From positions 1-38,414 of the IMG/VR virus record IMGVR_UViG_3300025942_000014: a stretch of 38,414 nucleotides of DNA. The stretch is one strand, 5' to 3'. This DNA comes from a virus. The notes beneath the pieces were generated by a model. That model was not told the origin of the DNA and searched no databases. It saw only the letters and a list, made by a program, of their open reading frames with translations. This document shows positions 1-24,462 of the stretch, in pieces; the stretch's first letter is position 1; each line of letters starts with the position of its first letter. The translations under genes were made by a program, and so were the position numbers.

Positions 1-571
1 CGGGGGCGGGGGCGGTGTGATCAATGCGATCGCCGCGGGCGGCGGTGGCGGGGCGGGCTCGCCTGTCGAGCGCGTGGGCAATCCCATCGCGGCAGCGTAC
101 ACGTTCGTCCTCGGCGCCGCTGGCGCAGGGGGATCGACGGCCGGGGGAGCCGGGGGCAACGGGGGGGACTCGACATTCAGCGCAGGCGGCGTCACGGTAA
201 CCGCACCAGGCGGCACAGGCGGATCGGGCGATGCAGCCGGGACGGCGGGGGCCACAAGCAGGAGCCGCCGTGGCGGAACCGGCGGAGTGCTCTCTACGAA
301 TGGCACCACGAACGGCGGCGGGGCTCCCGGGCACCCGTCCATCATGGTGCGGATCAACGCCCTGGACGTCATGGCGATCAGCGGTGCGGGCGGCAGCTCA
401 TCCATCGGCGGCGGCGGCCTCGGGCATTCGACCCCAGGCGCGACAAGCGCGGCAGGGAACGCAGCCACGGGGCCGGCCGCGGGCGGCGGCGGCGCCATCG
501 ACGACGGCACGGCGGCCCGTGCGGGCGGCGCGGGCGGCGATGGTTACGGCATCCTGGAGGAATTCAGCTAG
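1..571 (+). CDS. Glycine-rich tail protein, C-terminal part (continues from right end of window)
   Basis: The frame is open from base 2 to a TAG at 569-571, with no start that needs to be used. A GTG lies at 17, but glycine codons continue upstream of it. The product is almost pure glycine-rich low complexity (runs of GGGGG, AGGAGGNGGD, a VGNPIAAAY segment), as in the C-terminal domains of phage tail-fibre or collar proteins. It joins in frame to the ORF that begins at 37945 and leaves the window at 38414; the joined protein would be about 346 residues. Its stop overlaps the stop of the convergent minus-strand lipoprotein gene by 3 bp. Role as a tail/receptor-binding component is inferred from composition and neighbours. 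Confidence 0.75.
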   Translation, partial: GGGGGVINAIAAGGGGGAGSPVERVGNPIAAAYTFVLGAAGAGGSTAGGAGGNGGDSTFSAGGVTVTAPGGTGGSGDAAGTAGATSRSRRGGTGGVLSTNGTTNGGGAPGHPSIMVRINALDVMAISGAGGSSSIGGGGLGHSTPGATSAAGNAATGPAAGGGGAIDDGTAARAGGAGGDGYGILEEFS

Positions 572-801
572 TCGCAGGTCGCGACACAGAGCGCCGGGAC
601 CAGCGACTGGGCCTGGCCGCTGTAGATGCGCACCACGCAGTCGACGGCAGGCTTCAGGGAGCCGTCTACGTTGAAATATTGGCAGGTCGCGGTCGCCTCG
701 CCCGGGCAGAGCTGCCCTCCCAGCGTGCCCTCACAGACAGGGACCGACAGGTTGTCGCCACAGCCACACGCTACAAGCACCATCAGAATGAACGTCTTCA
801 T
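568..801 (-). CDS. Small lipoprotein (77 aa)
   Basis: A classical lipoprotein signal peptide opens the protein: MKTFILMVLVACGCGDN, with a lipobox ending at the first Cys (about residue 12). The mature part has several further Cys residues, suggesting an exported disulfide-stabilised domain. Short Cys-Gly-Asp-rich lipoproteins like this are common in Myxococcota, which hints at the host. The ATG at 801 is preferred over the in-frame GTG at 816 because the signal peptide starts there and because the repeated element at 804-823 sits 2 nt upstream, with the same spacing as its copy before the gene at 14043. It stands alone on the minus strand between late genes, so it is probably a lysogenic-conversion or accessory gene. 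Function unknown. Confidence 0.75.
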   Translation of the reverse strand: MKTFILMVLVACGCGDNLSVPVCEGTLGGQLCPGEATATCQYFNVDGSLKPAVDCVVRIYSGQAQSLVPALCVATCD

Positions 802-881: not shown

Positions 882-3800
882 GTGCCCAAGCCGCAGCGAT
901 CCACGGTTCAAATTCCCCTCGTCGGTGGCCTCGACACCAAGACCGCGCCCGACCTGGTGCAGCCGGGGAGCTTCCTCGAGGTCGAAAACTGCTGGCGCGA
1001 CCGCACTGGCGAATTCCGCAAGCGGTTCGGCTCGGCGGTGCTGCCCACTGCGACGGTGGAGGGGGCTGTCACGCCGACGGTGCTCGGTCCGCAGTTCTTG
1101 GCGAAGATCCGCAACGGCCTGTTTCGGATAGACGCGGGGCGCGCTGGCGATACGGCTGATCTGGCGGCCTTCTCGGCCAGCGCTCAGAAGTGGGCGCCGA
1201 TGTACGAGGGCGACCAGGAAGCATCAATGCTGCCGGCGACCATCGCGGCGATCCCGTCTCAACTTGACCGGTCTCTCCCGGACAGCGCCTCGGCCGGAGG
1301 GTTCTCGCTGGTCGTGCACGAGAAGGAAAGCGGGTCGAACACCATCGAGGCTGTGATCGTCGACTCGGCCACGGGCAACATGGTCGGAGCGCCTCGCTCT
1401 ATCGGGTCGATTTACCAGCGCCCCCGTTGCGCGGCGGCCGGTGGATACCTGTGCCTGTTCTACATCGACACGACAAACCGGTGGCTGGTCGTCGACGTGT
1501 GGAATACGGCCGCGCTTCCGCAGTTCCCAACGAACTACCAGATCGCCACCAACGTCACGGCGGCTGAGCCGTACTTTGATGTGATTCCTCGGCCCGGGGC
1601 GTCGACGATCCAGATCGCCTACCTGAACAACGCCGCCTCGATCACCGGGCGAGAGTTCAACCCAGCAACCGGCGCCACTGTCGCAACCGCGACGTTCGGC
1701 GCGGCGACCAACGCCGACCAGTGCCTGGCGTGGATGGACGATGCGACCGCGTCGGGCAGCTACTACCTGATCACCGCCGGCAGCGTCGGTGGCGTCGTGG
1801 TGCGCACCCTGTCGACGGCCTTTGCGGTCACCGCCACGCAGACGTGCGATGCCACCGCAACGGCGAACGTGCGCAACGTGACCGGGTTCTTCATCGCGGG
1901 CGGTGACAAACGCATCTACTGGGAGCAGGCCGCGTCCCCAACGTACAATTCGCTGGTCAAGTGCTGCTCTATCGTTGCCGGTGTCGCCACGGTGGTAACG
2001 GCGATCCGCGGGGTTTGCCTCGGGTCGAAGGTCTTCCTTCGGGGGCCGAGCACCGATCGCTACGTCCTGCTGACCTACGATTCGTTGCTTCAGCCGGTGC
2101 ACGTGGTGGCCTACCTCGGCGCTCTGCCGAACCCTGGCGCGACTCCGGTACTGATCGGGAAGATATTCCCCGGAGAGGGGGGCGGGCGGACCGCGCGCCA
2201 GGGCGCCCTCCCGTCCGTTTCGCTGCTGACCGGCTCGGGCACGGCGCTCGCGACCTATGCCGTGGCGCTGCCGCGCTCGATCGCCGTCACCACCGTCGGC
2301 GGCGTCTCGCTTCAGGTGCGGAACACGCAGCTGATGAAGCTGGATTTCGCGCAAGCCGACCTTGGCCCGCCGATCGAGGTGGCGGGCGTGATGCTGATGC
2401 CTGGCGGCGTCCTGCGCCAGTACGACGGGGGGCCTTACGTCTGGGCCAGCAATCCGGAGTTGCTGCCGGAGGCGCTCACGTCCACGCCGGCCACGGGCGG
2501 CGGGGCCCTGACGCTGCTGGGGATCTACCGGTGGGTGGCGGTGTACAAGTACATCGACGGCGCCGGCCGGGTGCACTGGTCCGCGCCATCCGCAGTCATC
2601 GCGTCGACGCTGACCGGGACGCAAAACCAGAGCGCCATCACCGTCCCGGCGCTCCGGATCGATCTGCGGACCGACACCAACACGTCGCTGAATGCACTGG
2701 CTATGGTGTCCGTTGCGCTCTATCGCACCGTCGCCAGCGGGACCGTCTTCTACAAGGTCGCCGAGGCCGCCAACGTCCTGGCCGCCGACACCGTCTCGTT
2801 CACCGATCAGCTTGCGGACAGCGCGATCACGTCGAGAGAGTACATCTACACGACGGGAGGAGAGCTGCCCAACTTCGACGCGCCCGCCCTATCGTGCATC
2901 GTCGAGTACAAGGGCCGCATCGTCGGGATCCGGGCCGAGGATCGGCGCAGTGTCTGGTACTCGAAGCTGATCCGGAACGGCGTGTTCCCCGGCTTTCACC
3001 CTACGTTCACGTTGACCTTCGACGCCTTCGACGGCGACCTGACCGCCCTGGGCGTGCTCGACGACAAGATGATTTTCTTCAAGCGCTCGACCATCTACGC
3101 GCTGTCTGGCGATGGCCCCGACGACCGCGGGGTGGGCGGGTTCAACGACCCCGCCCAGGTCACGAACAGCCAGGGGACGATCAACCCGCGGTCCGTTCTG
3201 CAGGACCCAGATGGCCTCTGTTTCGAAGGCGCGCGCGGGATCTGGCAGCTCAAGCGCTCGGGCGAACTCTCGTTCATTGGCGCCCCCGTGCAGGCCTACT
3301 TCACCGGTGGTGGGCGGGACATCACCGCGGCCGTGCTGCTCTCTGACTACTCGCAGCTCCGCTTCTTCACCGCGGCGGGCCGCACCTTCGTCTGGGACTA
3401 CCTTCAGCACCAGTGGTACACGTTCACGGGACAGCCCGCGGGCGCGGCGGTGGCGATCGGCTCGACGATCTACTGGTCGCACCCGACCACCGGCGTGGTC
3501 AGCTACGAGACGATCGGCGCGTACGGCGACAACGGCGTGGGCTACGCGCAACGGGTCGTTCCCCCGTGGCTGTCGCTGGCGGGGCTGGCTGGCGCCGAGC
3601 GCGTGAAGCGCCTGGCGCTCATCGGCGAGAACGTTGGCACCCACGCCGTCAAGGTCTCGACGTACCTGAACTTCAACGAATCGGCGCCGGCCTTCACGCC
3701 CAAGACGCTGTCGGGCGCCTCGGCGTGGCCTGAATCGGAATGGCGATGCGACGTCCAGCGGTGCACGTCGGCGAAGTTCGCGATCGAAGAGTCGGCCGCC

Positions 3801-3896
3801 AACACGGGCGCCGGGTTCCGTCTGTCCGCCGCGACGCTTGACGTGGCCGTGCAACAGCGCCTGCGCCGACTCCCGTCCGCCAACCGCGGGACGTAG
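882..3896 (+). CDS. Large tail protein, nozzle/stabilisation type (1004 aa)
   Basis: This very long, beta-rich, low-Cys protein opens with a segment typical of podovirus tail nozzle or stabilisation proteins (IPLVGGLDTKTAPDLVQPG, about residues 11-29: mainly 'all data must be kept' type residues GLDTKT and LxxVENC). Its C-terminal half has the Trp/Tyr/Asp-rich strands of a beta-propeller (SVWYSKLIRNGVFPGF, MIFFKRSTIYALSG, then FEGARGIWQL). Length and content fit the T7 gp12/P22 gp10-like class that closes the podovirus tail. The GTG start is set by the class A element immediately upstream. Its stop is followed after 5 bp by the palindrome preceding the next gene. Assignment is by style and context; no specific homologue is claimed. 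Confidence 0.65.
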   Translation: MPKPQRSTVQIPLVGGLDTKTAPDLVQPGSFLEVENCWRDRTGEFRKRFGSAVLPTATVEGAVTPTVLGPQFLAKIRNGLFRIDAGRAGDTADLAAFSASAQKWAPMYEGDQEASMLPATIAAIPSQLDRSLPDSASAGGFSLVVHEKESGSNTIEAVIVDSATGNMVGAPRSIGSIYQRPRCAAAGGYLCLFYIDTTNRWLVVDVWNTAALPQFPTNYQIATNVTAAEPYFDVIPRPGASTIQIAYLNNAASITGREFNPATGATVATATFGAATNADQCLAWMDDATASGSYYLITAGSVGGVVVRTLSTAFAVTATQTCDATATANVRNVTGFFIAGGDKRIYWEQAASPTYNSLVKCCSIVAGVATVVTAIRGVCLGSKVFLRGPSTDRYVLLTYDSLLQPVHVVAYLGALPNPGATPVLIGKIFPGEGGGRTARQGALPSVSLLTGSGTALATYAVALPRSIAVTTVGGVSLQVRNTQLMKLDFAQADLGPPIEVAGVMLMPGGVLRQYDGGPYVWASNPELLPEALTSTPATGGGALTLLGIYRWVAVYKYIDGAGRVHWSAPSAVIASTLTGTQNQSAITVPALRIDLRTDTNTSLNALAMVSVALYRTVASGTVFYKVAEAANVLAADTVSFTDQLADSAITSREYIYTTGGELPNFDAPALSCIVEYKGRIVGIRAEDRRSVWYSKLIRNGVFPGFHPTFTLTFDAFDGDLTALGVLDDKMIFFKRSTIYALSGDGPDDRGVGGFNDPAQVTNSQGTINPRSVLQDPDGLCFEGARGIWQLKRSGELSFIGAPVQAYFTGGGRDITAAVLLSDYSQLRFFTAAGRTFVWDYLQHQWYTFTGQPAGAAVAIGSTIYWSHPTTGVVSYETIGAYGDNGVGYAQRVVPPWLSLAGLAGAERVKRLALIGENVGTHAVKVSTYLNFNESAPAFTPKTLSGASAWPESEWRCDVQRCTSAKFAIEESAANTGAGFRLSAATLDVAVQQRLRRLPSANRGT

Positions 3897-3901
3897 TTGT
3901 T

Positions 3902-3954
3902 GGACACCGCGTCCGTTAATTCGCCGCGGCACCGAGAAACGGCCGTGCCCGTTC
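3902..3954 (+). promoter_or_regulatory. Composite late control element: palindrome plus class A element
   Basis: A 13-bp near-palindrome GGACACCGCGTCC (3902-3914) is followed by TTAATTCGCCGCG (3916-3928) and then by the class A element at 3935-3954, which ends at the ATG at 3955. The same three-part arrangement occurs at 28734-28786. In both cases the palindrome begins exactly 53 bp before the start codon. This is the entire gap between the two genes. Confidence 0.65.
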
Positions 3955-5592
3955 ATGGGCTTTTGGGACACCGTCGGAAAGATCGGAAAGGTCGCACTTG
4001 AAACCAACCCGGTGACGGCGCTGCCGACGTGGGTAGGGGAGACCGCCACTGGCGGCAGGGGCGCAGAGGCCACGGCGGATGTCGTAGGCGACGCATGGGA
4101 CACGCTGAACGGGGCGGGCGATCACCCTCCGGCGCTGCCTCCCCCTGGGTCGAACGCGCCGCCCGCGTTGCCTCCGCCTGCTGACCCGTCCGCCGTGAAT
4201 CAGGACACGGCCGCGTCTCGCGCTCTGCTCGCGCAGCTGCTTGGCCAGTACGGCAATTACCAGGGAGTGGCCGCACCGACCGCGGGCTATGCCACCGCGG
4301 CTCCGGCGTCGACGGCGCAGGGCTCGACGGCGCAGGCGGCCAGCTGGGCGCCTGTCGTGACGGCGCAGGGCGGACAGATTGGCCAGGCGGCCTCGGTGGC
4401 GCCAATGTCCTTCGGCGGGCCGATGTCGGCTGGCGCGTCCAGCTCCGGATCGGCTGCCCAGGCGCTGGCGGCGCTTGCCGATCCGGCGACGACCTACGCG
4501 GGCGCCACGATCGACAAGACGGACAGCAACGAGGTGCGCGCGCGCCAGCTGTCCCTCGCCGACGCGCTGACCAGCGTGATGAACGGTGGCGGTCCGCAGA
4601 GCCCGGCGGCGGCGCAACTGCAAATGGGCCTCGATCAGGCGCTGCAGCAGCAGGCCGCCATGGCCGCGAGCTCGCGCGGGCAGAACGTCGGGCTCGGGCA
4701 GTACAACGCCGCGATCCAGGGCGGACAACTCGCGGGGCAGGCCAATCAGCAGGCGGCCCTGCTCAAGGCGCAGGAGACCGCCCAGGCGCGCGCCCAGCTC
4801 GCCGGCCTCCTGAACGACACGCGCGGCCAGGACATCGGCCTTGCATCGAACCAGGCGGGACTCACGAACCAGGCCGGCATGTTCTCGGCTGGCGAGGTCA
4901 ACAAGGGCAACCAGTTCAACGCCGGCCAGAAGAACAACGTCGGCATGTTCAACGCCGACCAGCAGAACCAGAACCAGCGCCTCGATGCGCAGCTGGGCAC
5001 GCAGGCGTCGATCGCCAACATGACCAGCGGCAATCAATACAACGCGCAGATGAACGCCCTGGCCCAGGCCCTGGCGATCCAGAACGGGCAGTGGAGCCAG
5101 GACACCAGCCTGGCCAACGCACAGCTGGGCCAGCAGAACAACCAGTTCAACGCCGGCCAGTCGAACAGCTACAACCAGGCGCTGGCGCTGGCGCTGCAGC
5201 AGAACAATCAGTTCAACGCAACCCAGGACCAGCAGAACAGCCAGTTCAACACGGGCCAGTCGAACACCTACAACATGAACCAGGCCCAGCTCAACCAGGG
5301 CGTGAACCTGGCGAACCTGGGTTCGGCGCTGGGCACGAACCAGCTCAACCAGACGGGGCAAAACAACATCCTCGCGGCGCTGATGACCGGCAACGGGCAA
5401 CTGCTGGGGGCGGACGCATCGATCTACGGGACCCAGACTGGTGCGAATACCCAGATGGGCATCGCCCAGATGAACGACAGCCTGCAGAGGTACCTGCAGC
5501 AGCAGAAGATCGACCAGGAAAACAACTTCAGCACCAAGGATCTGATCAACACGATCATCGGCGGTGGTAGTACCTTGCTGAAGTTTGCCTAG
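3955..5592 (+). CDS. Gln/Asn-rich internal virion (ejection-type) protein (545 aa)
   Basis: The N-terminus (MGFWDTVGKIGKVAL) is short and amphipathic, followed by a Pro/Ala-rich linker. From about residue 290 to 490 there are repeats built on NQFNAGQ or related units (NQFNAGQ, NVGMFNADQ, NQFNAGQSNSYN, NQFNATQ, SQFNTGQ) alternating with Ala/Leu-Gln stretches. Such Gln/Asn-rich repeat proteins are frequent among podovirus internal or ejected proteins, and two more large internal-type proteins follow. It lies directly after the nozzle-like gene. The ATG at 3955 is chosen because the class A element abuts it; in-frame codons upstream overlap the preceding gene. Enzymatic motifs are not visible. 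Role in DNA ejection is inferred. Confidence 0.6.
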   Translation: MGFWDTVGKIGKVALETNPVTALPTWVGETATGGRGAEATADVVGDAWDTLNGAGDHPPALPPPGSNAPPALPPPADPSAVNQDTAASRALLAQLLGQYGNYQGVAAPTAGYATAAPASTAQGSTAQAASWAPVVTAQGGQIGQAASVAPMSFGGPMSAGASSSGSAAQALAALADPATTYAGATIDKTDSNEVRARQLSLADALTSVMNGGGPQSPAAAQLQMGLDQALQQQAAMAASSRGQNVGLGQYNAAIQGGQLAGQANQQAALLKAQETAQARAQLAGLLNDTRGQDIGLASNQAGLTNQAGMFSAGEVNKGNQFNAGQKNNVGMFNADQQNQNQRLDAQLGTQASIANMTSGNQYNAQMNALAQALAIQNGQWSQDTSLANAQLGQQNNQFNAGQSNSYNQALALALQQNNQFNATQDQQNSQFNTGQSNTYNMNQAQLNQGVNLANLGSALGTNQLNQTGQNNILAALMTGNGQLLGADASIYGTQTGANTQMGIAQMNDSLQRYLQQQKIDQENNFSTKDLINTIIGGGSTLLKFA

Positions 5593-6136: not shown

Positions 6137-6156
6137 AGAAACGTCGGTGCCGGGGT
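6137..6156 (+). promoter_or_regulatory. Class A start-anchored element before gene at 6157
   Basis: AGAAACGTCGGTGCCGGGGT abuts the GTG at 6157. It shares AAC-N4-GTGC with the other copies. The start codon is GTG, as at 882 and 29031. Confidence 0.65.
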
Positions 6157-7617
6157 GTGCACACCGACCCCGTTACGGGCCAGATGGTCGCGGACCCCGG
6201 CGATAGCCTCGCCCCGGGAATCACGCCAGGACAGGTAGCCTCCACCGAGACCGAGGGCACCAGCACGTCCCGCGGCGGACTCGCGCCCGCTGCCCAGGCG
6301 CGTCTCGACGCAGGGCGGGCCATCGATGCGACCGCCGCAACGGGGATGGTCGACGCCGTCGCCAAGGCTGGTGCGCTGGCAGAAGAGCGCGCTCGAATCG
6401 AGCAGGAAAAGGCGAACCGCGAAGCCGCCGTCACCGCCGAGTACAACAACCGGCGGTTGCAGGCGTTGGACGCCGCCGACAAGGACATCCAGGCCGCTCG
6501 CGCAGCCCACAAGCAGGCCTTCGACGACTACCGCAAGATGGGCGTTGGCGATTTCTTCTCGGACAAGGACCCGGCGACCGGCAAGGAAACCCGCAACACG
6601 GGGCGCATGGTGCTGGCCGCGATCACGGTGGGGCTCGGCGGGTTGATGCAGCGGTCGAACGGCGGCCGAAACACCGCCCTCGAAGCGCTCAACAAGACGA
6701 TGGACGACTACTTCGCCCGCGAGCGCGAGAAGATCCTAAAGGCGCGTGACGTCGCGGCCGAGGCGAAGGGCAATATCGGCGACGTGGCGCAGAACCAGGT
6801 TGCCGCGCTGAAGGCTCTCGATATCAAGGAGGCTGCCGCGCGGTCGAACGTGGCCGACGAGATGAAAGTCCGGCTGGCGGCGTTCGGTGTACCCCAGGCT
6901 CAGATCGACACCAACCGGGCCGTGCTCGAGCAGCAGCAGAAGGCCGCCGAGAAGCTGCAGAAGGTGGACGACTCGGAACGCACGCACATCGTCTCGACGC
7001 ACACGCGCGCGCTGCAGCAGCCGGGCACGGGCCAGGTGTTCGGCCCTGGCGGCAAGCCGCTCGTCGACGTGGGCGACAAGGTGAAGGCGAAGGACATCAA
7101 CGCCGTCATCGCGAACGCCCGCGAGATGGCCCAGTCGATCAAGGAACTGGCCGAACTGGACAAGAAGGGCGTGTCCATGCCGCTGGTCGGAGAGACGGCC
7201 CAGCGTCGCGAGTCCCTGCGATCGTCCATCCTGCTCAAGGCGAAGGAGCAGGCGAAGCTGGGCGCGCTGTCGGGCGGCGACATGTCGATCATGGAGAGCC
7301 AGCTTGGCGGAAAGCTGTCCGACGCAACGGGGGCTGGCCGGGGCGCTCGCCTTGACGAGATGGCGAAGCTCCTGGATCGCGGGACCACCGCGTACCTCGA
7401 CAGCCAGGGCCTTGCGGGCGCCCAGGTGCTGGAGAGCGTCGGCGTGACGCCCAAGGCGAAGCCGGCCGCTGCGCCGGCTGCCGCTGCGACCCCCACCAAG
7501 GCGCCTGCTTCCGGCGGTGGCCTGTCATCCGCCGATCGCGCCAAGCTGCTGCTCCACCTGAAGCGCAACCCGAACGATCCGCGCGCGCCGGACATCCGCG
7601 CGGCGCTGGGGATGTGA
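6157..7617 (+). CDS. Coiled-coil internal virion protein (486 aa)
   Basis: The protein is Ala/Lys/Glu-rich with long predicted helices. A charged coiled coil covers roughly residues 60-130, a Gly-containing hydrophobic stretch lies near 150-160 (MVLAAITVGLGGLM), and further helices follow to about residue 420. The tail is an Ala/Pro linker and a small basic domain (SADRAKLLLHLKRNPNDPRAPDIRAAL). This architecture fits the second of the ejection or internal-core proteins of podoviruses, lying between the Gln/Asn-rich protein and a larger glycine-zipper protein. The GTG start is fixed by the class A element. It is separated by 1 bp from the next gene and probably translationally coupled to it. 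No catalytic motif is recognised. Confidence 0.55.
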   Translation: MHTDPVTGQMVADPGDSLAPGITPGQVASTETEGTSTSRGGLAPAAQARLDAGRAIDATAATGMVDAVAKAGALAEERARIEQEKANREAAVTAEYNNRRLQALDAADKDIQAARAAHKQAFDDYRKMGVGDFFSDKDPATGKETRNTGRMVLAAITVGLGGLMQRSNGGRNTALEALNKTMDDYFAREREKILKARDVAAEAKGNIGDVAQNQVAALKALDIKEAAARSNVADEMKVRLAAFGVPQAQIDTNRAVLEQQQKAAEKLQKVDDSERTHIVSTHTRALQQPGTGQVFGPGGKPLVDVGDKVKAKDINAVIANAREMAQSIKELAELDKKGVSMPLVGETAQRRESLRSSILLKAKEQAKLGALSGGDMSIMESQLGGKLSDATGAGRGARLDEMAKLLDRGTTAYLDSQGLAGAQVLESVGVTPKAKPAAAPAAAATPTKAPASGGGLSSADRAKLLLHLKRNPNDPRAPDIRAALGM

Positions 7618-7618
7618 C

Positions 7619-9631
7619 GTGGACGCGATCGACGAGATCCTGTCGAAGGTGAAGCCGGCCGCTGCGCCCAGTGGCGACAGCATCGACGCGATCCTGGCCA
7701 AGGCGCGGCCCAAGGAGCCCTTCGACGCCATCGTTGCGCGCACGCCCGGGCCGGCAGAGGCACCGCAGGGACGCCAGTACACGTCGGCGCCGATCGATGC
7801 CCTGCACGAGCAGATCGCGGCGCTGCAGGCCGACGAGCAGCGGCGCGCTACCGATCCGTCCCTGGCTGGGCGCTTCAAGCGCGGGTTCGGCAACGCAGCG
7901 GCGACGTTCGCTGGCGGCGCACACGCCGTCGCCGAGACCGCGGCGCACCCGATCGACACGATCACCAGCGGCCCGCGGCGGCGCCAGTTCGTTCGTGGGG
8001 TCGACGACATGCTGACCCTCGGTCACGGCCAGCGCCTCGCCGCCCGCGTCGGCAACGCACTGGGCGACACGCCCGATGTGGCGATCGGCCCCGAGACGTT
8101 CGGCGGCGGAATCGCTGGCAGCGGCGGGATGCCGGTGCCCAACACGCAGGCTGGCGATCAGGCAGTCGCGCCCGAGTTCCGCCAGCTGGGAAACGTTGCT
8201 GGCGTCGTCGGCCCGGGGCTGGGTCGCGCTGCGGCTGGAACGCTGGCCGAAGCGCTCGGGCGGCGCGCGCTGGCAACCGGCGCCGCCCCTGGCGTCGTCG
8301 GCAACCTCGCTGCGCGTGCGTCCACGGCGCCGCTGGGCGGCCTGGGGGAAGTCTTGGCCAACGCCGGCCAGCAGGCCGCGGGACGGCTGATCCCCGGCCT
8401 GGGCGCGGCGCCTGGGGCGGTGCGGGGCATGCTCGGCTATCAGCTCTCGGCGCCTGCTGCTGCTGGCCTGTCCGCCGATGCCGAAGGGGATCGCGTCGGC
8501 GCGGCCCTGGATGCTGCAACCGATCCGTTCGGCAACCTGGTAGCGGGTGGGCTCGGTGCAGCGATCGGTGGCGCGCCCGATCGCGTCGCCAACCGGATCG
8601 TCAAGGACGTTCCGCACGGCGAGGCCACCGCGAAGCTGTCCACCGCCAAGAAGTTCGAGGCGCGGATCGGCCCGGACGGCGAGTTCCTGCAGAACATGCT
8701 GGACCGCGATCCGAAGCTGGAACGCCAGCTGGCGATCAGCGCGAAGAGCAACCCCAAGAAGGTCGCCGAAACAGCGCAAGGCCGCATCGAGCGGTACGAC
8801 GCCGCGAACGATCGGCTGTACGACAAGATCGACAACGCGCCCGATCGCCGGTTTGTGAGCGGGCCTGACGTCGGGCGGCCGATCGGCGGCATCGACGTGC
8901 ACGCGATCGACCAGGCGCTGGCCAAGCTCGAGGCGACCGCCAAGGACAAGATGCAGCTGGGTCAGACCGGCCCCGTCGCCAAGGTCCGCGCCGCGCTGGC
9001 CGAGGCGTACGGCGAGGTCATGGAAGACGGCTCGAAGAAGGTTGTCCCCGGCACCGTGAAGCCGTCCCGCGACGTGCGCAGCTTTGCCAGCAACGATATC
9101 GGGAAGGTCGCCTTCGCTGGCGATCCGAACATCGATCCTCCGGAGCGCATCCGGGCGCAACAGCGGATGTACCGCGCCGTCACCGACGTGATCGAGGACG
9201 CCGCCAAGGGCCGGCTGTCCCCGGGCGAAGTCGCGAAGCTGAAGACGGCAAACCGCGACCTGTCGATCCTGGTGCCGATGCGAGACGCCCTGAAGGAACG
9301 GGCGGCAAAAGAGGCCGTGGGGCGGACGTCTCTCTACTCGCTGCTCGGCGGCTCCGGCGTCGGCGCGTCGGTCGGCGCGGGCGTTGGCATGGGCGTCGCC
9401 GGCCCGCCGGGTGCGTTCGTCGGCGCCAAGGTAGGGGCGGGCGTCGGCGCAGCCGGTGGAGCCATCGCGGGACGAGCTGCCCGGACGCTCGACTACGAGC
9501 TGATGCGCACGGCGCGCGAGCAGGGCGGCACGGCGGCCGCCGCGAAGTTGATGCAGCTCTCGCGGCAGGGCGCCACCGACGATGAACTGCGCACGGCGCT
9601 CGACCGCATGGGCATCAAGCTCGCGGATTGA
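7619..9631 (+). CDS. Large internal virion/ejection protein with glycine-zipper segment (670 aa)
   Basis: The N-terminus repeats the motif IDAILAK/IDEILSK twice (about residues 4-10 and 22-28). A Gly/Ala-rich helical middle follows. Near residues 575-625 there is a glycine-zipper stretch (GVGASVGAGVGMGVAG ... GAGVGAAGGAIAG) of the kind that inserts into membranes. The C-terminus is helical. Size, order and composition fit the third ejection protein of a podovirus, which might form or line a trans-envelope channel. The GTG start is 1 bp after the upstream stop, and the stop is 1 bp from the stop of the convergent minus-strand gene. No lytic transglycosylase motif is evident. Functional assignment is inferred. 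Confidence 0.55.
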   Translation: MDAIDEILSKVKPAAAPSGDSIDAILAKARPKEPFDAIVARTPGPAEAPQGRQYTSAPIDALHEQIAALQADEQRRATDPSLAGRFKRGFGNAAATFAGGAHAVAETAAHPIDTITSGPRRRQFVRGVDDMLTLGHGQRLAARVGNALGDTPDVAIGPETFGGGIAGSGGMPVPNTQAGDQAVAPEFRQLGNVAGVVGPGLGRAAAGTLAEALGRRALATGAAPGVVGNLAARASTAPLGGLGEVLANAGQQAAGRLIPGLGAAPGAVRGMLGYQLSAPAAAGLSADAEGDRVGAALDAATDPFGNLVAGGLGAAIGGAPDRVANRIVKDVPHGEATAKLSTAKKFEARIGPDGEFLQNMLDRDPKLERQLAISAKSNPKKVAETAQGRIERYDAANDRLYDKIDNAPDRRFVSGPDVGRPIGGIDVHAIDQALAKLEATAKDKMQLGQTGPVAKVRAALAEAYGEVMEDGSKKVVPGTVKPSRDVRSFASNDIGKVAFAGDPNIDPPERIRAQQRMYRAVTDVIEDAAKGRLSPGEVAKLKTANRDLSILVPMRDALKERAAKEAVGRTSLYSLLGGSGVGASVGAGVGMGVAGPPGAFVGAKVGAGVGAAGGAIAGRAARTLDYELMRTAREQGGTAAAAKLMQLSRQGATDDELRTALDRMGIKLAD

Positions 9632-9632
9632 C

Positions 9633-10424
9633 CTACTTCGACGCAACCCTGGTGGCGCTGGTCTCGGTCGCCTTGGCGATGTCCGGGGCGGCCCCGGCCG
9701 CGGGCGCCTGCTGCTGCTTCGCCTTGTCCTGCTGGAACGACAGGTGGAGCCGCGCCGCGAGCTCGGGCGTGATGGTCTCGGCGCCCAGGAAGATGCGCAG
9801 CAGCCGATCGCGCCGCCACGGCAGTTCGAAGCTCGTCTTTTGCGCCACCAGCGAGGCCAGCGCCCCGGGCACCGACTCGGCCACGTCCTGGTAGAGCAGG
9901 GGGTAGACCCCGCCGAGAACCTGCATCTCTTCGCGCAGCAGCGTCCCGCTCTCCATGTTGGCGAAGATCAGTTGCGGGTCATGGACGACGGCCAGGGCGC
10001 GGCGCAGCCTGGCTAGCGCCGTGTCGGGCGGCGGCTCGGGCTTGGGGCCGGTGGCGGTCGGACGGTTGTAGATAGGCACGAACGGGCGCAACACCACCAG
10101 CGCGCGCTCGGTCGCGTCGTGCAGCGCCATCTGCTCCGCGGCGTTATCGGTGCCAGACAGCGTCTCGATACGCGCTTCGTCATCGGGGGGCGCGAGCAGG
10201 CTGGCGATCGAGGCCTTGTAGTCGATCTTGGGTGGCAGCTTGAACTTCTCGAACGAGTCCGGGCCGCCTAGGAATGCCTTCATCGCCGCGCGGAGCTTCT
10301 TGGGGAGCTGGGCCGCTTCCTGGCGCATGGCCTGGGTAATGCGCACCGGTCCGCCTGCGAGAACCGTGTCCAGGCCCACGACGGCTAGCAGCGCTTCGCC
10401 GAGGACTGCAATCGCTGGATCCAT
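9633..10424 (-). CDS. Minus-strand protein of the internal-virion block (263 aa)
   Basis: This is a helical protein with a conserved-looking central part (RPFVPIYNRP, about 95-104; LRRALAVVHDPQLIFANME, about 125-143; VYPLLYQDV). The pattern 'DP-x-L-x8-G-T-L ... YP-x-LY' is familiar from C-terminal regions of phage internal or polyvalent proteins. It ends with a Gln/Ala-rich tail. It is the only large minus-strand gene inside the rightward virion block. Its ATG at 10424 carries its own class A element on the minus strand, back to back with that of the gene at 10464, so it is probably co-expressed with the late genes. A virion role is inferred from that shared signal; no specific function is recognised. 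Confidence 0.65.
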   Translation of the reverse strand: MDPAIAVLGEALLAVVGLDTVLAGGPVRITQAMRQEAAQLPKKLRAAMKAFLGGPDSFEKFKLPPKIDYKASIASLLAPPDDEARIETLSGTDNAAEQMALHDATERALVVLRPFVPIYNRPTATGPKPEPPPDTALARLRRALAVVHDPQLIFANMESGTLLREEMQVLGGVYPLLYQDVAESVPGALASLVAQKTSFELPWRRDRLLRIFLGAETITPELAARLHLSFQQDKAKQQQAPAAGAAPDIAKATETSATRVASK

Positions 10425-10444
10425 GCAGCGGCACCGCCGTTCCA
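10425..10444 (-). promoter_or_regulatory. Class A element on the minus strand
   Basis: Read on the minus strand, TGGAACGGCGGTGCCGCTGC abuts the ATG at 10424. This is the only minus-strand copy seen, and it precedes the only large minus-strand gene in the virion block. It is direct evidence that the element tracks gene starts and not one replication strand. Confidence 0.7.
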
Positions 10445-10463
10445 GGAACAGGTGTGCCGGGGC
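10444..10463 (+). promoter_or_regulatory. Class A element before gene at 10464, abutting the minus-strand copy
   Basis: AGGAACAGGTGTGCCGGGGC abuts the ATG at 10464 and shares one base with the divergent minus-strand element. The two start codons are only 39 bp apart, so the two elements make up the whole divergent intergenic region. Confidence 0.7.
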
Positions 10464-10832
10464 ATGGGTGTCAGCCGCATCGACAAGTTGATCATCGACC
10501 CGGCAGGGGCCAACAACATGACCGGCACCGCAACGGTCCTGTCGACGCCGATCCGGATGGACTCGCTGCAGCAGCTGTCCTTGGAGCTGTCTTACACCGG
10601 AACGCCCAACGGCACGCCGACGTGGGAGGACAGCGACAGCTACGACCCGGTCACCAACCCCAACGCGACGTTCTTCACGCTGGCCACCACCGCAGCACTG
10701 GCGGCGATCGCGGCGGCTGGTTCACAGATGGTCGCAGTGACCAAGCGGGGCAAGTGGGGGCGCGTGCGCTACGTCAACACGTCCGGAACCGGTCAGCTGA
10801 CCGTGCGGGCCTTCGGCACCGGAGTCGTCTAG
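10464..10832 (+). CDS. Small virion-type protein (122 aa)
   Basis: A beta-rich, Thr/Gly/Ala-rich protein with no Cys, starting MGVSRIDKLIIDPAG, then segments such as YTGTPNGTPTWEDSDSYDP and RYVNTSGTGQLTVRAFG. This is typical of small virion or decoration proteins with an immunoglobulin-like or jelly-roll fold. The ATG at 10464 is preferred over the upstream GTG at 10452 because the class A element ends exactly at 10463. It is followed after 3 bp by the membrane protein gene at 10836. The exact role is unknown. Confidence 0.6.
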   Translation: MGVSRIDKLIIDPAGANNMTGTATVLSTPIRMDSLQQLSLELSYTGTPNGTPTWEDSDSYDPVTNPNATFFTLATTAALAAIAAAGSQMVAVTKRGKWGRVRYVNTSGTGQLTVRAFGTGVV

Positions 10833-10835
10833 GCC

Positions 10836-11222
10836 GTGCGCGAGCCGTCGCGATTCCCGCGCGTGGTCGACGAGCCGGCACCGGCGCCCGACGTCGATCT
10901 GCGCCCGTGGTCGTCTCGGAACGCGAAGGCGTTCGGGACGATCATCGGCACCGCCCTCGCGACGCTACTCGTGGGCACCGGCGGACTTACCGGCCTGGCG
11001 CACGTCGCGGGAATCGCGACCGTCAAGGAGATCGCCGCCCTCGACGAGAAGCTGACCGCCGCGGAGCGCACGCGGGCGACGGCATCGGACGTCGACAGCA
11101 AGCGATTCACGGCCATCACGGCAAAGCTGGACGCGCTGGCGAAGGACACGAAAGCGCTGCGCGCGGACGCCGCCAAGAAGACGAAGAGGCCAAAACCAGA
11201 CGCCGGGGGCGCGAGTGAATGA
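10836..11222 (+). CDS. Single-pass membrane protein with coiled coil, holin/spanin-like candidate (128 aa)
   Basis: An approximately 35-residue Pro-rich N-terminal tail precedes one hydrophobic segment (about residues 33-60: FGTIIGTALATLLVGTGGL). A charged helical region predicted to be a coiled coil follows (about 65-112), and the end is Lys-rich. One transmembrane helix followed by a coiled coil fits either a class III-like holin or an inner-membrane spanin, and the gene sits where lysis genes are usual, just after the virion genes. No homologue is recognised, so the lysis role is only inferred. The GTG start lies 3 bp after the previous stop. Confidence 0.55.
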   Translation: MREPSRFPRVVDEPAPAPDVDLRPWSSRNAKAFGTIIGTALATLLVGTGGLTGLAHVAGIATVKEIAALDEKLTAAERTRATASDVDSKRFTAITAKLDALAKDTKALRADAAKKTKRPKPDAGGASE

Positions 11223-11532
11223 TAACTCCCTGGACCGATCGGCTGATAGCATCTGGGACGGGATTTACCGGGGCCGGGCGAGCAGTCACCGACGAAATCT
11301 CGCAAACGTCGCCAGTGAAACGGCACGCGTCGCGGTCCTTATCGCGCAGGGCTCGCGCCTCGTCGATCGCCTTCCAGGCGCGGATCGACAGGTGGAGCTT
11401 CTTGGCGTCTGCGACGAAATAGACGAGTTGGTTGAGTCGATGCGCCGCACGTCCGAGCACCTGCGGGCCGAGGCTGGCGTTGCGGTCCCGGTGGTGCGGC
11501 CTGGGTTCTGGGCGAGGTTGTTTCGCCGATGA
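11215..11532 (+). CDS. Small helical basic protein (105 aa)
   Basis: It begins MNDNSLDRSADSIWDG and continues with helical segments containing many Arg (SSHRRNLANVASETARVAVLI, ELVESMRRTSEHLRAE), ending in a short aromatic/basic tail (FWARLFRR). The GTG start overlaps the previous gene by 8 bp, and its stop overlaps the next start by 4 bp (ATGA). It has no signal peptide or recognised motif. It is part of the small-gene cassette 10836-12663; function unknown. Confidence 0.5.
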   Translation: MNDNSLDRSADSIWDGIYRGRASSHRRNLANVASETARVAVLIAQGSRLVDRLPGADRQVELLGVCDEIDELVESMRRTSEHLRAEAGVAVPVVRPGFWARLFRR

Positions 11533-11825
11533 GCTTCTTCGATCCCGAGAAGACGCCGACATCGCCGCCGGGGTCGTGCTGGCGGTGCGAGCGCTTTCAC
11601 GCCGTGTTCGTCGACGCGCCCATGCCGGGCTCGCGCTACGAGATCGAGCGCGTGCCCACCTGCGTGCTGGCCCAGGACTGGGCGTGGTGTGCCGTGAGCT
11701 TCTTCCTGCGCCTGGGCAAGTACGAGTTCTACCTGGGCCCCGACCACCGCGAGAAGCCGCGGATCCCGTACGACCTCGACCGACGCCGCCGACCGGCAAT
11801 TCCGCCTCGGCAGGACGACAAGTGA
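11529..11825 (+). CDS. Hypothetical protein with CWRCERFH motif (98 aa)
   Basis: A possible small zinc-binding site, CWRCERFH (about residues 18-25), is followed by further Cys residues (PTCVLAQDW, WCAV), and the tail is Arg/Pro-rich. Aromatic residues are frequent (RLGKYEFYLGPD). Start and stop are set by a 4-bp ATGA overlap with the gene upstream, and a GTGA overlap is possible with the longer form of the gene downstream. No family is recognised. Confidence 0.5.
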   Translation: MSFFDPEKTPTSPPGSCWRCERFHAVFVDAPMPGSRYEIERVPTCVLAQDWAWCAVSFFLRLGKYEFYLGPDHREKPRIPYDLDRRRRPAIPPRQDDK

Positions 11826-11842
11826 ATCACGAAAGGACCACC

Positions 11843-12427
11843 ATGTTTCGAAAGCTCAAGCTCCTGATCATCCTCGCTGGATGCTGCGCCGCCTGCGGGA
11901 CCATCCCCGAGTCGACGGCACCCGCAGGGGCCGTCACCGCCGTCGAGTCCGCCGTCGCTCTCGACGGCAGCATGACGATGACCGGACAGTATGCCTGCGC
12001 TGGCGTCACCTATCTGATCGAGCAGCCGATCTCCCAGACGCAGTCCCGGCGCTGCTGCGGACTGAGCAACGTCTACAACACGAAGATCGGTCAGTCCGGC
12101 TTGCCCTCGGGAACGAATTGGTCCGGCTACACGAAGGTCCAGCTGCTGTGCAACAACATCACCATCCCGGTGTCGCCAGTCTGCGGCTCCGGCGGCGCGC
12201 TTTGCGCCACCGCCCGCGTGAATTGCGCGATGTACAACAAGCCCAACGGCGCGAGCTCCTGGACGTACTCTGGGACCGTCGAGACCGGCTGCATGCTCTA
12301 TCCCGACTACGCCGCGCACGGGCTCTATCAAATGGACCTGTGGTACCAGGGCGGCGGCAACGGCGTGGGCATCTCCGCGTGTTCGAGCGGCTTCGGGGCA
12401 AACCTCTACTACCTGTTCGGCGGATGA
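11843..12427 (+). CDS. Cys-rich lipoprotein (194 aa)
   Basis: A lipoprotein signal peptide is clear (MFRKLKLLIILAGCCAACG, lipobox LAGC at about residues 11-14). The mature protein has about a dozen Cys residues, including an adjacent pair (RRCCGL), and is rich in Gly, Ser, Tyr and Asn, suggesting a disulfide-bonded beta protein on the cell surface. The ATG at 11843 is preferred over the GTG at 11822 because a good Shine-Dalgarno (GAAAGGA) lies 7-13 bp upstream and the signal peptide begins there. It lies where an endolysin would be expected but shows no known catalytic motif. It may be a lysogenic-conversion or superinfection-exclusion protein, or part of an unusual lysis module. Confidence 0.65.
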   Translation: MFRKLKLLIILAGCCAACGTIPESTAPAGAVTAVESAVALDGSMTMTGQYACAGVTYLIEQPISQTQSRRCCGLSNVYNTKIGQSGLPSGTNWSGYTKVQLLCNNITIPVSPVCGSGGALCATARVNCAMYNKPNGASSWTYSGTVETGCMLYPDYAAHGLYQMDLWYQGGGNGVGISACSSGFGANLYYLFGG

Positions 12428-13305: not shown

Positions 13306-13463
13306 AGCCCGTGCCGCCGCCTGAACCGCGCGACGGCTGCTCGCCCAGCCGCGGCGAACTGCTGCACCAGCTTGTTCCGGTCGGGGAAAACGTCGCGCAG
13401 GTACTTGTCAGCGCGCTCCGCGTTGGTGGTGCGTGATGGGTCGTTCTTGTGGCTCCGCTTCAT
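13302..13463 (-). CDS. Small basic hypothetical protein (53 aa)
   Basis: A short, strongly basic protein (MKRSHKNDPSRTTNAERADKY..., ending RAAVARFRRRHGL). The start is set by a strong Shine-Dalgarno: on the minus strand AAGGAGG lies 7 bp before the ATG at 13463. It overlaps RusA by 4 bp (GTGA) and leads the minus-strand operon. It is divergent from, and nearly overlaps, the HTH regulator gene; the promoter must lie within the 5' part of that gene. Function unknown; nucleic-acid binding is plausible from its charge. Confidence 0.55.
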   Translation of the reverse strand: MKRSHKNDPSRTTNAERADKYLRDVFPDRNKLVQQFAAAGRAAVARFRRRHGL

Positions 13464-13475
13464 CGTCGAACCTCC

Positions 13476-13946
13476 TTGACCGAACAGCCCAAGCACCGCA
13501 CGATCGGCAGCTTGAAACCCGAGGACCTCGTCAACGAGATCGTGCGCGCCAGGGCCGCCTTGGAAGAGGCGCGCGCGAACGTCACGCGCTTGACCGAGTA
13601 CATCGGCGCGCTCGAGCTGGCCGCGAAATTGAAAGACCCGTCGTTGACTCGCAAGCGTATCGACAGTATCGTATCGTCCGTGCAGCTGCAAGGGACGCCC
13701 AAGGTTTCTAGCTCGACGCTCCGGGCGGCCGGGCGTGCGACCCGCGGCGGCGAGGCGCAGCGGCGCCTATACGAGAAGGACATGACGATCGCCAAGCTGG
13801 CCGAGAAGCTGGGCGAGGGCAGGGCGCGCGTGTCGAAGTGGTTCGGGACCGCCGACGAGAACCGGCCGATCCCACGCCGCTACGCCGAGCAGCTGCTGAA
13901 GGAATACGGGATCCCGCTGTCCGCCTGGGCCCGCATCGCGGACTAG
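13476..13946 (+). CDS. HTH regulator, putative repressor (156 aa)
   Basis: The N-terminal half is helical with a likely coiled coil (about residues 14-52: VNEIVRARAALEEARANVTRL). The C-terminal third has a helix-turn-helix of the XRE/Cro type (about 98-125: EKDMTIAKLAEKLGEGRARVSKWFG), followed by PRRYAEQLLKEYGIPLSAW. It sits exactly between the leftward rusA operon and the rightward early operon, the usual place of a lysogeny switch regulator. The start is uncertain: TTG at 13476 avoids overlap with the divergent gene; GTG at 13449 is possible. The coding sequence contains CGTATC repeats (13656-13680) that recur in the promoter region just downstream, suggesting autoregulation. Confidence 0.7.
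   Translation: MTEQPKHRTIGSLKPEDLVNEIVRARAALEEARANVTRLTEYIGALELAAKLKDPSLTRKRIDSIVSSVQLQGTPKVSSSTLRAAGRATRGGEAQRRLYEKDMTIAKLAEKLGEGRARVSKWFGTADENRPIPRRYAEQLLKEYGIPLSAWARIAD
13656..13680. promoter_or_regulatory. CGTATC repeat cluster inside the regulator gene
   Basis: CGTATCGACAGTATCGTATC and the following GTCCG contain three closely spaced copies of the GTATCG word. The stretch ATCGTATCGTCCGT recurs at 13985-13998. Likely a binding-site array, low to moderate confidence. Confidence 0.35.
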
Positions 13947-17865: not shown

Positions 17866-18765
17866 TTGAGCCGGGTAGAAGTCCGGACACAGGCCGAGCT
17901 GGACGCCGCTCTGCTTGCCGGTTACCTGCCCGTGCTGGTCGGCGACGGAACGTTCGCCATCAGGTCAGGATCGCCCAGGGTCGAGGCGTACGACAGCTCG
18001 GCGCCCACGGTCGTGGCGTACGACAGCTCGGCGCCCACGGTCGTGGCGTACGGCAGCTCGGCGCCCAGGGTCGAGGCGTACGGCAGCTCGGCGCCCACGG
18101 TCGTGGCGTACGGCAGCTCGGCGCCCACGGTCGTGGCGTACGGCAGCTCGGCGCCCAGGGTCGAGGCGAACGGGATCTGCCGGCCGTTCATCCGCGGCGC
18201 GGTCAGCATCACCGCCGGCGCGCTGGTCGCCATCGCGGTGCTGGGCGGCAAGCCGAAAATCACGGGCGGCGGGTTCGTCTCTCGCGCCGACGTCTCGACG
18301 CCCGCGAGCTGGTGCGAGTTCTACGGCGCGAGGGTCAGCAACGGCGTCGCGACGCTCTTCAAGGTCGTCAAGCTCGACTACAAGACCCCGCAGCGTGGTT
18401 TTGCCTACGTGCCAGGCACCATTCCGTCCGCGCCCGACTGGGACGGCGGCGCGCGTGAGTGCGGCGGTGGGTTGCACTTCTCGCCGACCACGCATTCCAC
18501 GCTGACGTTTGCCGAAGGACTGGCGCGCGACCAGCGGAGGTTTGTCGCGTGCCCCGTCGCGCTGGCCGACATGGTCGTGCACCCGGATGGTTCGTATCCG
18601 CAGAAGTGCAAGGCCCCGCGCCTGGCCGGGCCCTGCTGGGAGGTAAACGAGGACGGTGAGCCTGTGCCGGGCGCCGTCGTCTGGTCGCCCCCCGCCGTTG
18701 CCGTGAAGGCCGCGCGCAAGGCGAAGGCGAAGAAGCCCCCAGCCAAGAAGCGAAGGGCGTCATGA
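17866..18765 (+). CDS. Protein with ten-residue AYGSSAP repeats and C-terminal phage domain (299 aa)
   Basis: An N-terminal 35 residues (SRVEVRTQAELDAALLAGYLPVL) lead into six copies of the ten-residue unit V[EV]AY[DG]SSAP[TR] (about 39-98). A hydrophobic segment (VSITAGALVAIAVLG) and a C-terminal domain follow, with motifs CEFYGARV, FKVVKLDY, GTIPSAPDWDGG, ECGGGLHFSP and ACPVALADMVVHPDGSYPQK. The end is Lys/Ala-rich. Proteins with such beta-helix-like repeats and this C-terminal domain are common in phages (I believe the DUF7666 type), without a known function. The start is TTG at 17866. A GTG or ATG alternative with a Shine-Dalgarno is not seen nearby. The next gene overlaps it by ATGA. Confidence 0.65.
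   Translation: MSRVEVRTQAELDAALLAGYLPVLVGDGTFAIRSGSPRVEAYDSSAPTVVAYDSSAPTVVAYGSSAPRVEAYGSSAPTVVAYGSSAPTVVAYGSSAPRVEANGICRPFIRGAVSITAGALVAIAVLGGKPKITGGGFVSRADVSTPASWCEFYGARVSNGVATLFKVVKLDYKTPQRGFAYVPGTIPSAPDWDGGARECGGGLHFSPTTHSTLTFAEGLARDQRRFVACPVALADMVVHPDGSYPQKCKAPRLAGPCWEVNEDGEPVPGAVVWSPPAVAVKAARKAKAKKPPAKKRRAS
17981..18160 (+). repeat. Six 30-bp tandem repeats arranged as two 90-bp units
   Basis: Period-30 units begin at 17981, 18011, 18041, 18071, 18101 and 18131, and a partial copy follows to 18168. The pattern of variants (GAGG, GTGG, GTGG at the unit start) repeats after three units, so the array is also two 90-bp copies that differ at only two bases (GAC versus GGC codons). Confidence 0.9.
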
Positions 18766-18908: not shown

Positions 18909-19114
18909 AGAGCGGCGGCGAGACCCTCGTGGCGCTGCTGATCGCCGCGCTGATCTGCGGCGGCTTCTGGGGCATAAGCGAGGCCGTCAGCGCGGTTCGC
19001 TGCGGCGCTCGCTGGGGCGGCATCGAGCACCGGTACCGCGTGATCGGCGGCTGCCAGGTGCGCGGCCGTCAGGGCTGGATACCAGCGTCAGCGTACCGCG
19101 AGGTGTCCCCATGA
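18905..19114 (+). CDS. Small membrane protein (69 aa)
   Basis: MKSGGETLVALLIAALICGG and the following FWGISEA give one hydrophobic helix; the rest is basic with two Cys (RCGARWGG, GGCQVRGR) and ends SAYREVSP. It is linked by ATGA overlaps to the genes on both sides. It may sit in the inner membrane; exclusion or lysis timing is possible but not supported by any motif. Confidence 0.5.
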   Translation: MKSGGETLVALLIAALICGGFWGISEAVSAVRCGARWGGIEHRYRVIGGCQVRGRQGWIPASAYREVSP

Positions 19115-20139
19115 GGTGGGCCGGATATCGCGAGTTGCCGCTCAAGCGGCTGAAGCTGCCCGGGGACATCCCGGCGCGGATGAAGCTCCCCCATGTCATC
19201 GAGCTTTCGAAGTCGATCGACCTCGGGAACGAGCTGATCAACGCGCCGGTGGTCGAGGGCGAGACAGAAGAGCTGCACGCAGGGCGTGACCGCATCGCCG
19301 CTTGCCTCCTGCGCAGAATGAAAAAGGTCTGGTGCCACGTCGCCGTCGAAATGACCGACGAGGACCGGGCGGACCTCGAGCTATTCGAGAACCTCCACCG
19401 GCGCCAGGACAACCGCGACGAGCTGATCGCCCGCCGGGTGGCGCGACTGGCCGGGCAATTACCGGACACGGCGTCCGGAAAACCGGGGCGTCGAAAGACC
19501 GCCCGGGGCGCCGCGCGCGAGCAGGTGGCCCGCGAAATCGGCACCACGCCGGAAGCGGTGCGGGCCGCCGAGAAGCGGGCCGAGGCTGACGAACAGGAGG
19601 AGCAGGAGGAGCCCGCGACGCCCGTCGTGGTGCCCCCGCCCGTCGAGACGTGGGGCGTGCCGGTGGATCACCTGGCGCAGGAGTTCGCGTCGGTGCGGAT
19701 CGCTCAAGAGGCGATGCGAGCGGCCGATCGCCACCTGCAAGCGGCGCAACGTGCGCTTGCTGCACTGGCGGACGGTGGCGGCGTGGCGAGGCACTACCAC
19801 GCGCGGCTGTACGCGGGGGTCCACAATGCGGCGGCTGCGCTGCGGGCGGACATTCCGACGGCGCTCTGCCCGTACTGCAAGGGCGCGCCGCAGCGCCAGG
19901 TGAACTGCAACGGGTGCAGCCGGATCGGCTATGTCGGCGACAACGCGCTACTGGGCGTGGCCGAGGAGCTGAAGCGCGGCGGAGCGGCGGCGTGCGTCCC
20001 TGACGGGAAAGGCGGCTTCATGCCGGCGGTGGTCACGCCCGCCAAGAAGAAGGCGATCCCTTCCGCGGCCAAGGCGCTGCAGATCCTGGACGCGGACGAC
20101 AAGCCGATCGTCGTGCCGCCGGACGAGGACCTATTTTGA
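19111..20139 (+). CDS. ParB-like domain protein with zinc finger (342 aa)
   Basis: The N-terminal ParB/sulfiredoxin-like domain (about 1-110) shows LPLKRLKLPGDIP, the diagnostic LHAGRDRIAACLL in place of GHRRLEA, and ELFENLHRRQDN. An HTH-like region follows (about 130-155: AREQVAREIGTTPEAVRAAEKR). The C-terminal half has an Ala-rich helix (about 195-230) and a DnaJ-like zinc ribbon with CPYC and CNGC (about 252-270). Phage ParB-like proteins act in replication, partition or as nucleases. Here it leads the replication genes. The coding sequence contains one copy of the palindrome seen at late control sites (19464-19476). The ATG overlaps the previous stop (ATGA). Confidence 0.7.
   Translation: MRWAGYRELPLKRLKLPGDIPARMKLPHVIELSKSIDLGNELINAPVVEGETEELHAGRDRIAACLLRRMKKVWCHVAVEMTDEDRADLELFENLHRRQDNRDELIARRVARLAGQLPDTASGKPGRRKTARGAAREQVAREIGTTPEAVRAAEKRAEADEQEEQEEPATPVVVPPPVETWGVPVDHLAQEFASVRIAQEAMRAADRHLQAAQRALAALADGGGVARHYHARLYAGVHNAAAALRADIPTALCPYCKGAPQRQVNCNGCSRIGYVGDNALLGVAEELKRGGAAACVPDGKGGFMPAVVTPAKKKAIPSAAKALQILDADDKPIVVPPDEDLF
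19462..19478. promoter_or_regulatory. Palindrome copy inside the ParB-like gene
   Basis: CCGGACACGGCGTCCGG has 6-bp perfect arms around a 5-bp centre. Its core GGACACGGCGTCC is identical to the copy at 13952-13964, and the reverse complement continues GGTAATT as at 28747-28753. Possible operator or partition-like site; it could also be coding coincidence. Confidence 0.4.
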
Positions 20140-24257: not shown

Positions 24258-24304
24258 TTCTTGACATTGCCGCGCCGCGCCTGCCACTGCGGGATTTCAA
24301 GTGA
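24254..24304 (+). CDS. Possible 16-residue micro-ORF in the overlap chain
   Basis: MILDIAAPRLPLRDFK is bounded by ATGA on the left and GTGA on the right, so it bridges its neighbours in the translational-coupling chain. Its only support is that arrangement; it may serve coupling and not make a functional product. Confidence 0.3.
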   Translation: MILDIAAPRLPLRDFK

Positions 24305-24462
24305 CCCGCGCAGTGAAGCCCGAGAAGACAGAGCGCAACGCCCAGGTCGTGGCGGCCCGTGCGGCTGGCTGGACGGTGTCGCAGATTGCCGAGGCGGCGC
24401 ACCTTGCACGGTCACGCGTGCGGGCGATCCTGGCGATGCAGCGGCGGCGGGCGGCGCGATGA
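24301..24462 (+). CDS. Small HTH protein (53 aa)
   Basis: A compact helix-turn-helix fills most of the protein (about 16-43: VAARAAGWTVSQIAEAAHLA followed by RSRVRAILA), resembling resolvase/sigma-like minimal HTH units. It ends in Arg/Ala. GTG start in a GTGA overlap, ATGA at the end. It could regulate the switch from early to late genes or the start-anchored elements, which is inference only. Confidence 0.6.
   Translation: MTRAVKPEKTERNAQVVAARAAGWTVSQIAEAAHLARSRVRAILAMQRRRAAR

Follow-up and report, generated by a model that had tools for sequence, protein, structure and literature searches.

A conserved element ending in the start codons of late phage genes, and its back-to-back pair between two divergent genes

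Twelve genes of a 38.4-kb viral record, analyzed here over its whole length (the window), carry a 22-nt asymmetric element that ends in the start codon itself. This element, class A, has the consensus GRAACGnnsGTGCCGnkGCRTG, and two of its copies stand back to back at 10422-10466 between divergent genes. We favor the view that class A is a translation-initiation signal of late genes, read on the mRNA and replacing the Shine-Dalgarno (SD) sequence, to which we give roughly an even chance, over a compact promoter of leaderless mRNA, which we regard as possible but doubtful. The missing SD core and the rigid spacing separate this conserved gene-start element from an ordinary ribosome-binding site, and with the back-to-back pair one compact construct can decide between reading at the DNA level and reading at the RNA level. 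If reading at the RNA level is correct, class A would constitute a dedicated translation switch for late genes.

The window (GC 67.6%) encodes an SU10-type portal and adaptor, a large terminase, a tyrosine integrase and Dam, as well as a Sak4-like annealing protein, a helicase and a primase. This gene content indicates a temperate phage, which we count as such because of its integrase. Gene content was also used to assign the late region (~25 kb to the window end, plus the start to ~11 kb) and the early region (~11.5-24.8 kb). Comparisons were made with two long relatives, G001 (38,498 bp) and G002 (38,106 bp), and with shorter related contigs. The same ~85 bp is found at both ends of G002 (L056:1-86 and the end of L057), and these repeated ends suggest that it is probably a complete genome. 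Among isolated phages, no nucleotide match to the window was found and TerL matches were limited to remote ones in Vibrio phages, and a prophage-based host search with capsid and portal alignments against a genome collection found nothing. Two short, lipoprotein-like genes at 568-801 (minus strand) and 11843-12427 (plus strand), both without relatives in G001 and G002, are possible accessory genes.

Direct reading of the sequence bears out the central observation of the initial annotation, namely that two class A copies lie back to back between divergent start codons 39 bp apart. The 39 bases in question (10425-10463) separate the ATG of the minus-strand ORF 9633-10424 from the ATG of the plus-strand ORF 10464-10832 and hold essentially the two elements alone. 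The minus-strand copy (10443-10422) reads GGAACGGCGGTGCCGCTGCATG and ends in the ATG at 10424-10422, and the plus-strand copy (10445-10466) reads GGAACAGGTGTGCCGGGGCATG and ends in the ATG at 10464-10466. The copies had been described as sharing a single base, which is true of 23-mers with position -20 counted, the shared base being 10444; as 22-mers, they are separated by that same base. Compared with the strict consensus, the two copies match at 17 and 15 of 19 positions, and in shuffled 38-kb sequences 0.4 matches reach 15 and none exceeds it.

The pair is kept in both long relatives, with the minus-strand copy at L057:12033-12054 and L054:8533-8554 and the plus-strand copy at L057:12010-12031 and L054:8507-8528. 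One base lies between the copies in G002 and four in G001, where a 3-nt insertion falls exactly between them and the remaining differences are mainly at variable positions. Because the gap differs in this way between relatives, the copies are independent units with no fixed helical phase. The flanking proteins are conserved as well, at 77% and 95% in G001 and G002 for the minus-strand gene and 89% and 98% for the plus-strand gene, which identifies both ORFs as real genes. The former encodes a 263-aa protein with no PHROG or Pfam match and is a minus-strand gene among plus-strand late genes, while the 122-aa product of the latter is probably virion-related, judging by its position.

The window contains 11 matches to the relaxed core GNAACNNNNGTGCNNNNNNRTG, where chance predicts 0.05; no shuffle out of 100 attained 11. 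All of these matches, together with one slightly diverged copy at 25031 that lacks only the first G, end exactly in an ORF's start codon, and the spacing between element and start codon is invariant at every accepted site (12 in the window, 39 including relatives). The conserved block extends from -20 to +2, with the start codon's first base as reference, and nothing is shared beyond it; a common upstream promoter element across class A sites was rejected, given that nothing upstream of -20 is conserved. Within the block, little or no variation is seen in AAC (-17 to -15), GTGC (-10 to -7) and the start codon's TG, and position -20 is only weakly conserved (A in 14 of 29). A C or T invariably precedes the start codon, whose first base is an A or G. 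At orthologous sites of the window and G001, only 1 of 77 positions of the AAC/GTGC core has changed versus ~31% at silent codon sites, and most non-core positions have changed in 14-34% over all comparisons. With its core frozen while the rest drifts, class A is maintained by selection and is no recently copied repeat. Allowing up to three mismatches, we found 8 matches in G001, 10 in G002 and 1-3 in each shorter relative, with none for a reversed control pattern, and pattern scans of the viral collection confined class A to a handful of related contigs. The element is absent from 85 other loci of SU10-portal-type phages, and by our test the 26 longer ones have no other start-anchored repeat; these loci led us to reject class A as a general feature of such phages.

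Apart from the pair, class A copies occupy ten plus-strand sites, at 863-884 (gene 882-3896), 3936-3957 (gene 3955-5592), 6138-6159 (gene 6157-7617), 25031-25052 (gene 25050-25460, the diverged copy, with A as its first base), 25977-25998 (gene 25996-26175, within the upstream ORF 25457-25999), 28768-28789 (gene 28787-29011), 29012-29033 (gene 29031-29225, directly following the upstream stop codon), 31229-31250 (gene 31248-31646, directly following the stop codon of the portal gene), 33195-33216 (gene 33214-34392, with a one-base overlap with the upstream stop codon) and 34406-34427 (gene 34425-35309). The products of class A genes differ from gene to gene, and each gene has one element: the consecutive genes 28787 and 29031 carry one each, and G002, which is without the first of these genes, is also without one element. 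Likewise, genes gained or lost between relatives come and go together with one element each. Gene 33214 is absent from G001 and G002, 25996 is absent from G001, and an extra gene follows L055:6011.

The distribution of class A follows both gene class and translational coupling. Based on our own gene calls, which comprise few genes from one lineage of related genomes, class A is found at 11 of 13 late genes that are not closely coupled upstream (start at least 10 bp from the neighbor), at 1 of 15 closely coupled late genes (25996; Fisher p 5e-5 versus uncoupled) and at none of 11 uncoupled early genes (p 3e-5). The two uncoupled late genes without the element possess a strong SD sequence, GGAGG for the major capsid gene at 35325 and AGGAG for the gene at 36627. 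Class A itself has no SD core, since its core is AAC/GTGC with just 3-5 contiguous SD bases. By the same gene calls, the longest SD match averages 3.4 bases for class A genes versus 3.9 and 4.5 bases in the rest (p 0.011), a modest difference.

Single class A copies are unstructured. Among 31 distinct copies, no consensus helix and no base pair with changes on both sides were found, and the short CGTGC/GCRTG complementarity within the element involves one arm that hardly varies, rendering helix evidence there uninformative. An RNA hairpin in single copies was rejected for want of a conserved helix or compensatory changes, and the window has no match to Rfam families or tRNAs. For the pair as RNA, the predicted folding energies are -38.1 kcal/mol on one strand and -35.0 kcal/mol on the other (z -3.7 and -3.5, respectively), with similar but weaker folds predicted for the G002 and G001 pairs. 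This hairpin arises because two copies are placed in inverted order, and it is predicted to hide both start codons in any RNA spanning the pair; the predicted accessibility of the plus-strand copy rises from 0.19 to ~0.5 once the RNA begins at 10440-10445. That the fold is weaker in G001 suggests that selection acts on something other than the hairpin itself. As a selected feature the hairpin is unlikely, given that complementarity is lost at variable positions.

We propose that class A is read as a linear sequence by a dedicated factor, probably phage-encoded, or by an infection-altered ribosome, with each copy serving only the gene in whose start it ends, on its own strand. An RNA running through both copies would fold into the hairpin described above, a productive mRNA would need its 5′ end within the partner copy, and read-through RNA arriving from either side would be kept silent by the pair. 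The initial annotation had suggested that the pair discriminates between a DNA-level and an RNA-level role, an idea that is sound and that the hairpin sharpens. As a spanning RNA buries both starts, a signal read on RNA predicts 5′ ends within the partner copy; leaderless promoters predict 5′ ends at the start codons of the pair.

A translation-initiation signal explains the fixed register, the rule of one element per gene, the alternation of class A with SD sequences, the tolerance of GTG and the presence of copies in tight operons. The GTG starts of 3 of the 12 class A genes in the window (882, 6157 and 29031) speak for translation, being less expected of leaderless mRNA. Furthermore, where class A follows a second element, class B, the block 34 bp upstream offers a promoter or operator candidate other than class A. 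Several points stand against this reading. The minus-strand gene needs a nearby minus-strand promoter, none of which was recognized, and an element acting as promoter would explain this at once. The predicted hairpin would hinder a signal read on RNA unless 5′ ends lie inside the gap, complementarity of class A to the 16S anti-SD is slight (GGTG in a minority of copies), and the C/T before and A/G at the start form the usual transcription-start pattern. The most elaborate version of the proposal, a phage-specific initiation signal read by sequence that needs a phage-made reader and steers ribosomes to virion genes, with the pair as a two-way insulator against read-through, is rather unlikely in its entirety.

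The principal alternative, plausible enough to weigh even though we doubt it, is a compact late promoter whose leaderless mRNA begins at the start codon, read by an unrecognized phage RNA polymerase, by a sigma-like factor or by an activator together with host polymerase; the pair would then be two divergent promoters. Such a promoter would account for the fixed register to the start codon, for an asymmetric 19 bp plus ATG of about T7-type promoter length, for the restriction to late genes and the missing strong SD, and for the fact that every copy has a pyrimidine preceding the start and a purine at it. It would also give the isolated minus-strand late gene its promoter and make the pair hairpin harmless. 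Conceivable partners are a 53-aa HTH protein (24301-24462; weak Sigma70_r4 and HTH_23 matches) and a 92-aa zinc-finger-like protein (24459-24737; weak Anti-TRAP and DnaJ zinc matches). However, PHROG and Pfam scans of nearly all genes gave no match to an RNA polymerase or sigma factor, nor to the RegA family, and the copies track translational uncoupling, not the heads of operons. In tight operons several begin immediately at the upstream stop codon, one is located inside an ORF, a separate class B block is present upstream of some copies, and class A is GC-rich without an AT-rich melting region.

The divergent gap had also been taken to leave no space for two conventional promoters with leaders. 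The compactness of the element holds, as the conserved block spans -20 to +2 and the gap is essentially filled by two elements, but the promoters may not be forced into the gap: each gene's promoter could overlap the coding region of the opposite gene. A search for sigma70-like sites (-35/-10 hexamers) in 9500-11900 returned none, although the host's promoter type may differ, and silent-site constraint in the codons flanking the pair is not unusual; neither result therefore points independently to a buried conventional promoter. Codons 16-30 of the plus-strand gene look conserved (1 of 14 changed), but so do 12% of 15-codon windows in other genes, and this constraint was rejected as a sign of a buried promoter.

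Class A might instead be a repressor operator, either a stoperator-like site on DNA or a RegA-like site on RNA, that shuts late genes in lysogeny or early infection, which we consider improbable. Stoperators of cluster A mycobacteriophages (PMC9283540) similarly comprise multiple asymmetric sites that follow the direction of transcription and occupy short intergenic gaps in a temperate phage, the integrase making the present phage temperate too. In contrast to class A, they are 13 bp and without a start-codon anchor, and they are bound by the immunity repressor; exact anchoring to the start codon is no described stoperator feature. Operators of T4 RegA (PMC3014915) resemble class A in being unstructured and in overlapping or abutting the AUG of many genes, but they are A+U-rich without a clear consensus, belong to early and middle genes, mediate repression and occur with an SD sequence. 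A repressor also leaves unexplained the alternation of class A and strong SD sequences.

The presumed immunity operator in these genomes is a different element, class B, which consists of the inverted repeat GGACAnnnTGTCC followed by roughly GnTAATTCGnCGCGTCAC as a conserved right flank. Class B lies 34 bp upstream of class A at 3902-3914 (class A at 3936; likely an operator/promoter region) and 28734-28746 (class A at 28768), and at the matching places in G001 and G002. In G006, the matching places carry CGAACATTTGTTCG instead of GGACAnnnTGTCC, and class A is unchanged. From these sequences, class B would be an operator whose specificity switched, and class A would have another reader. Because the presumed immunity operator changed type and class A did not, one repressor reading both is unlikely. 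Further class B copies are present at 13952 and 19464 in the window and in L054, L055, L056, L057 and L061. One class B copy is internal to gene 19111-20139 and to its relatives; the encoded protein, ParB/KorB-like by eye with no confident family match, might bind class B.

A recombination linker, meaning a short repeat without regulatory role that is retained between genes because it helps their exchange, fits the gain and loss of genes between copies (33214, 25996 and the gene after L055:6011) but is highly improbable, since only seven core bases and the start codon are frozen while the others drift, and the copies are limited to late, uncoupled genes and always end in a start codon.

The closest described counterparts of class A are the start-associated sequences (SAS) of cluster K mycobacteriophages, 13-bp sites directly at start codons, about half of which have an upstream inverted-repeat block, ESAS (PMC3203893). 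The ESAS block contains putative SigA-like promoter hexamers (PMC11373665), and the role of SAS is not known, its function in phages having been open since the 2011 description; Microbacterium cluster EF phages carry an SAS-like motif (PMC7302621). Like class A, SAS occurs as ~10-19 short asymmetric copies, mostly in one orientation, at the starts of unrelated genes (cluster K: PMC3203893, PMC11373665, PMC12699233; EF: PMC7302621), and in both systems a subset has an upstream inverted-repeat block, ESAS there and class B here. In contrast, SAS is 13 bp with an SD core at a variable 3-9 bases from the start codon, whereas class A is longer (22 nt), lacks an SD core and takes in the start codon at a fixed spacing. 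SAS marks mainly non-structural genes and class A late/structural genes, and class A, unlike SAS, occurs as a divergent pair with each copy at a gene start. The SAS sequence, GGGATAGGAGCCC or GGGAAAGGACCCC, is not matched by the class A consensus, and the two have no sequence similarity. As it shares the position and two-part layout of SAS but lacks two of its defining features, the SD core and the sequence, and marks structural genes, class A is of the start-associated kind yet no SAS. The pair itself recalls start-codon hairpins of the T4 gene e type (PMC3014915), in which longer transcripts hide the start codon, as predicted here on both strands; unlike that type, the pair hairpin results from the inverted placement of two gene-start elements, and its individual base pairs are not all preserved in relatives.

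Other repeats and small genes were noted in the window. The two small genes at the early/late border (24301-24737) are candidates for a late regulator. Searches with the zinc-finger-like protein and with an HTH_3 protein returned essentially the same contigs, the one addition being an 18-residue match in L116. An inverted repeat TAGTCAAG-N4-CTTGACTA lies at 24966-24990, upstream of the first late gene, and recurs in L061 near 10040-10070; in G006, its arms are partly kept and the loop differs. Tandem GTATC-N4-GTATC repeats (class C) occur at 810, 13657, 13988 and 14021, close to the 0.8-kb divergent start and in the vicinity of the HTH_3 regulator gene 13449-13946, and are present in G001 and G002 too. 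Direct 30-nt repeats with a start-to-start spacing of 30 span 17942-18211, in or opposite gene 17866-18765, and imperfect 63-nt coding repeats are found at 32582-33014 within the fibre-like gene 31906-33195.
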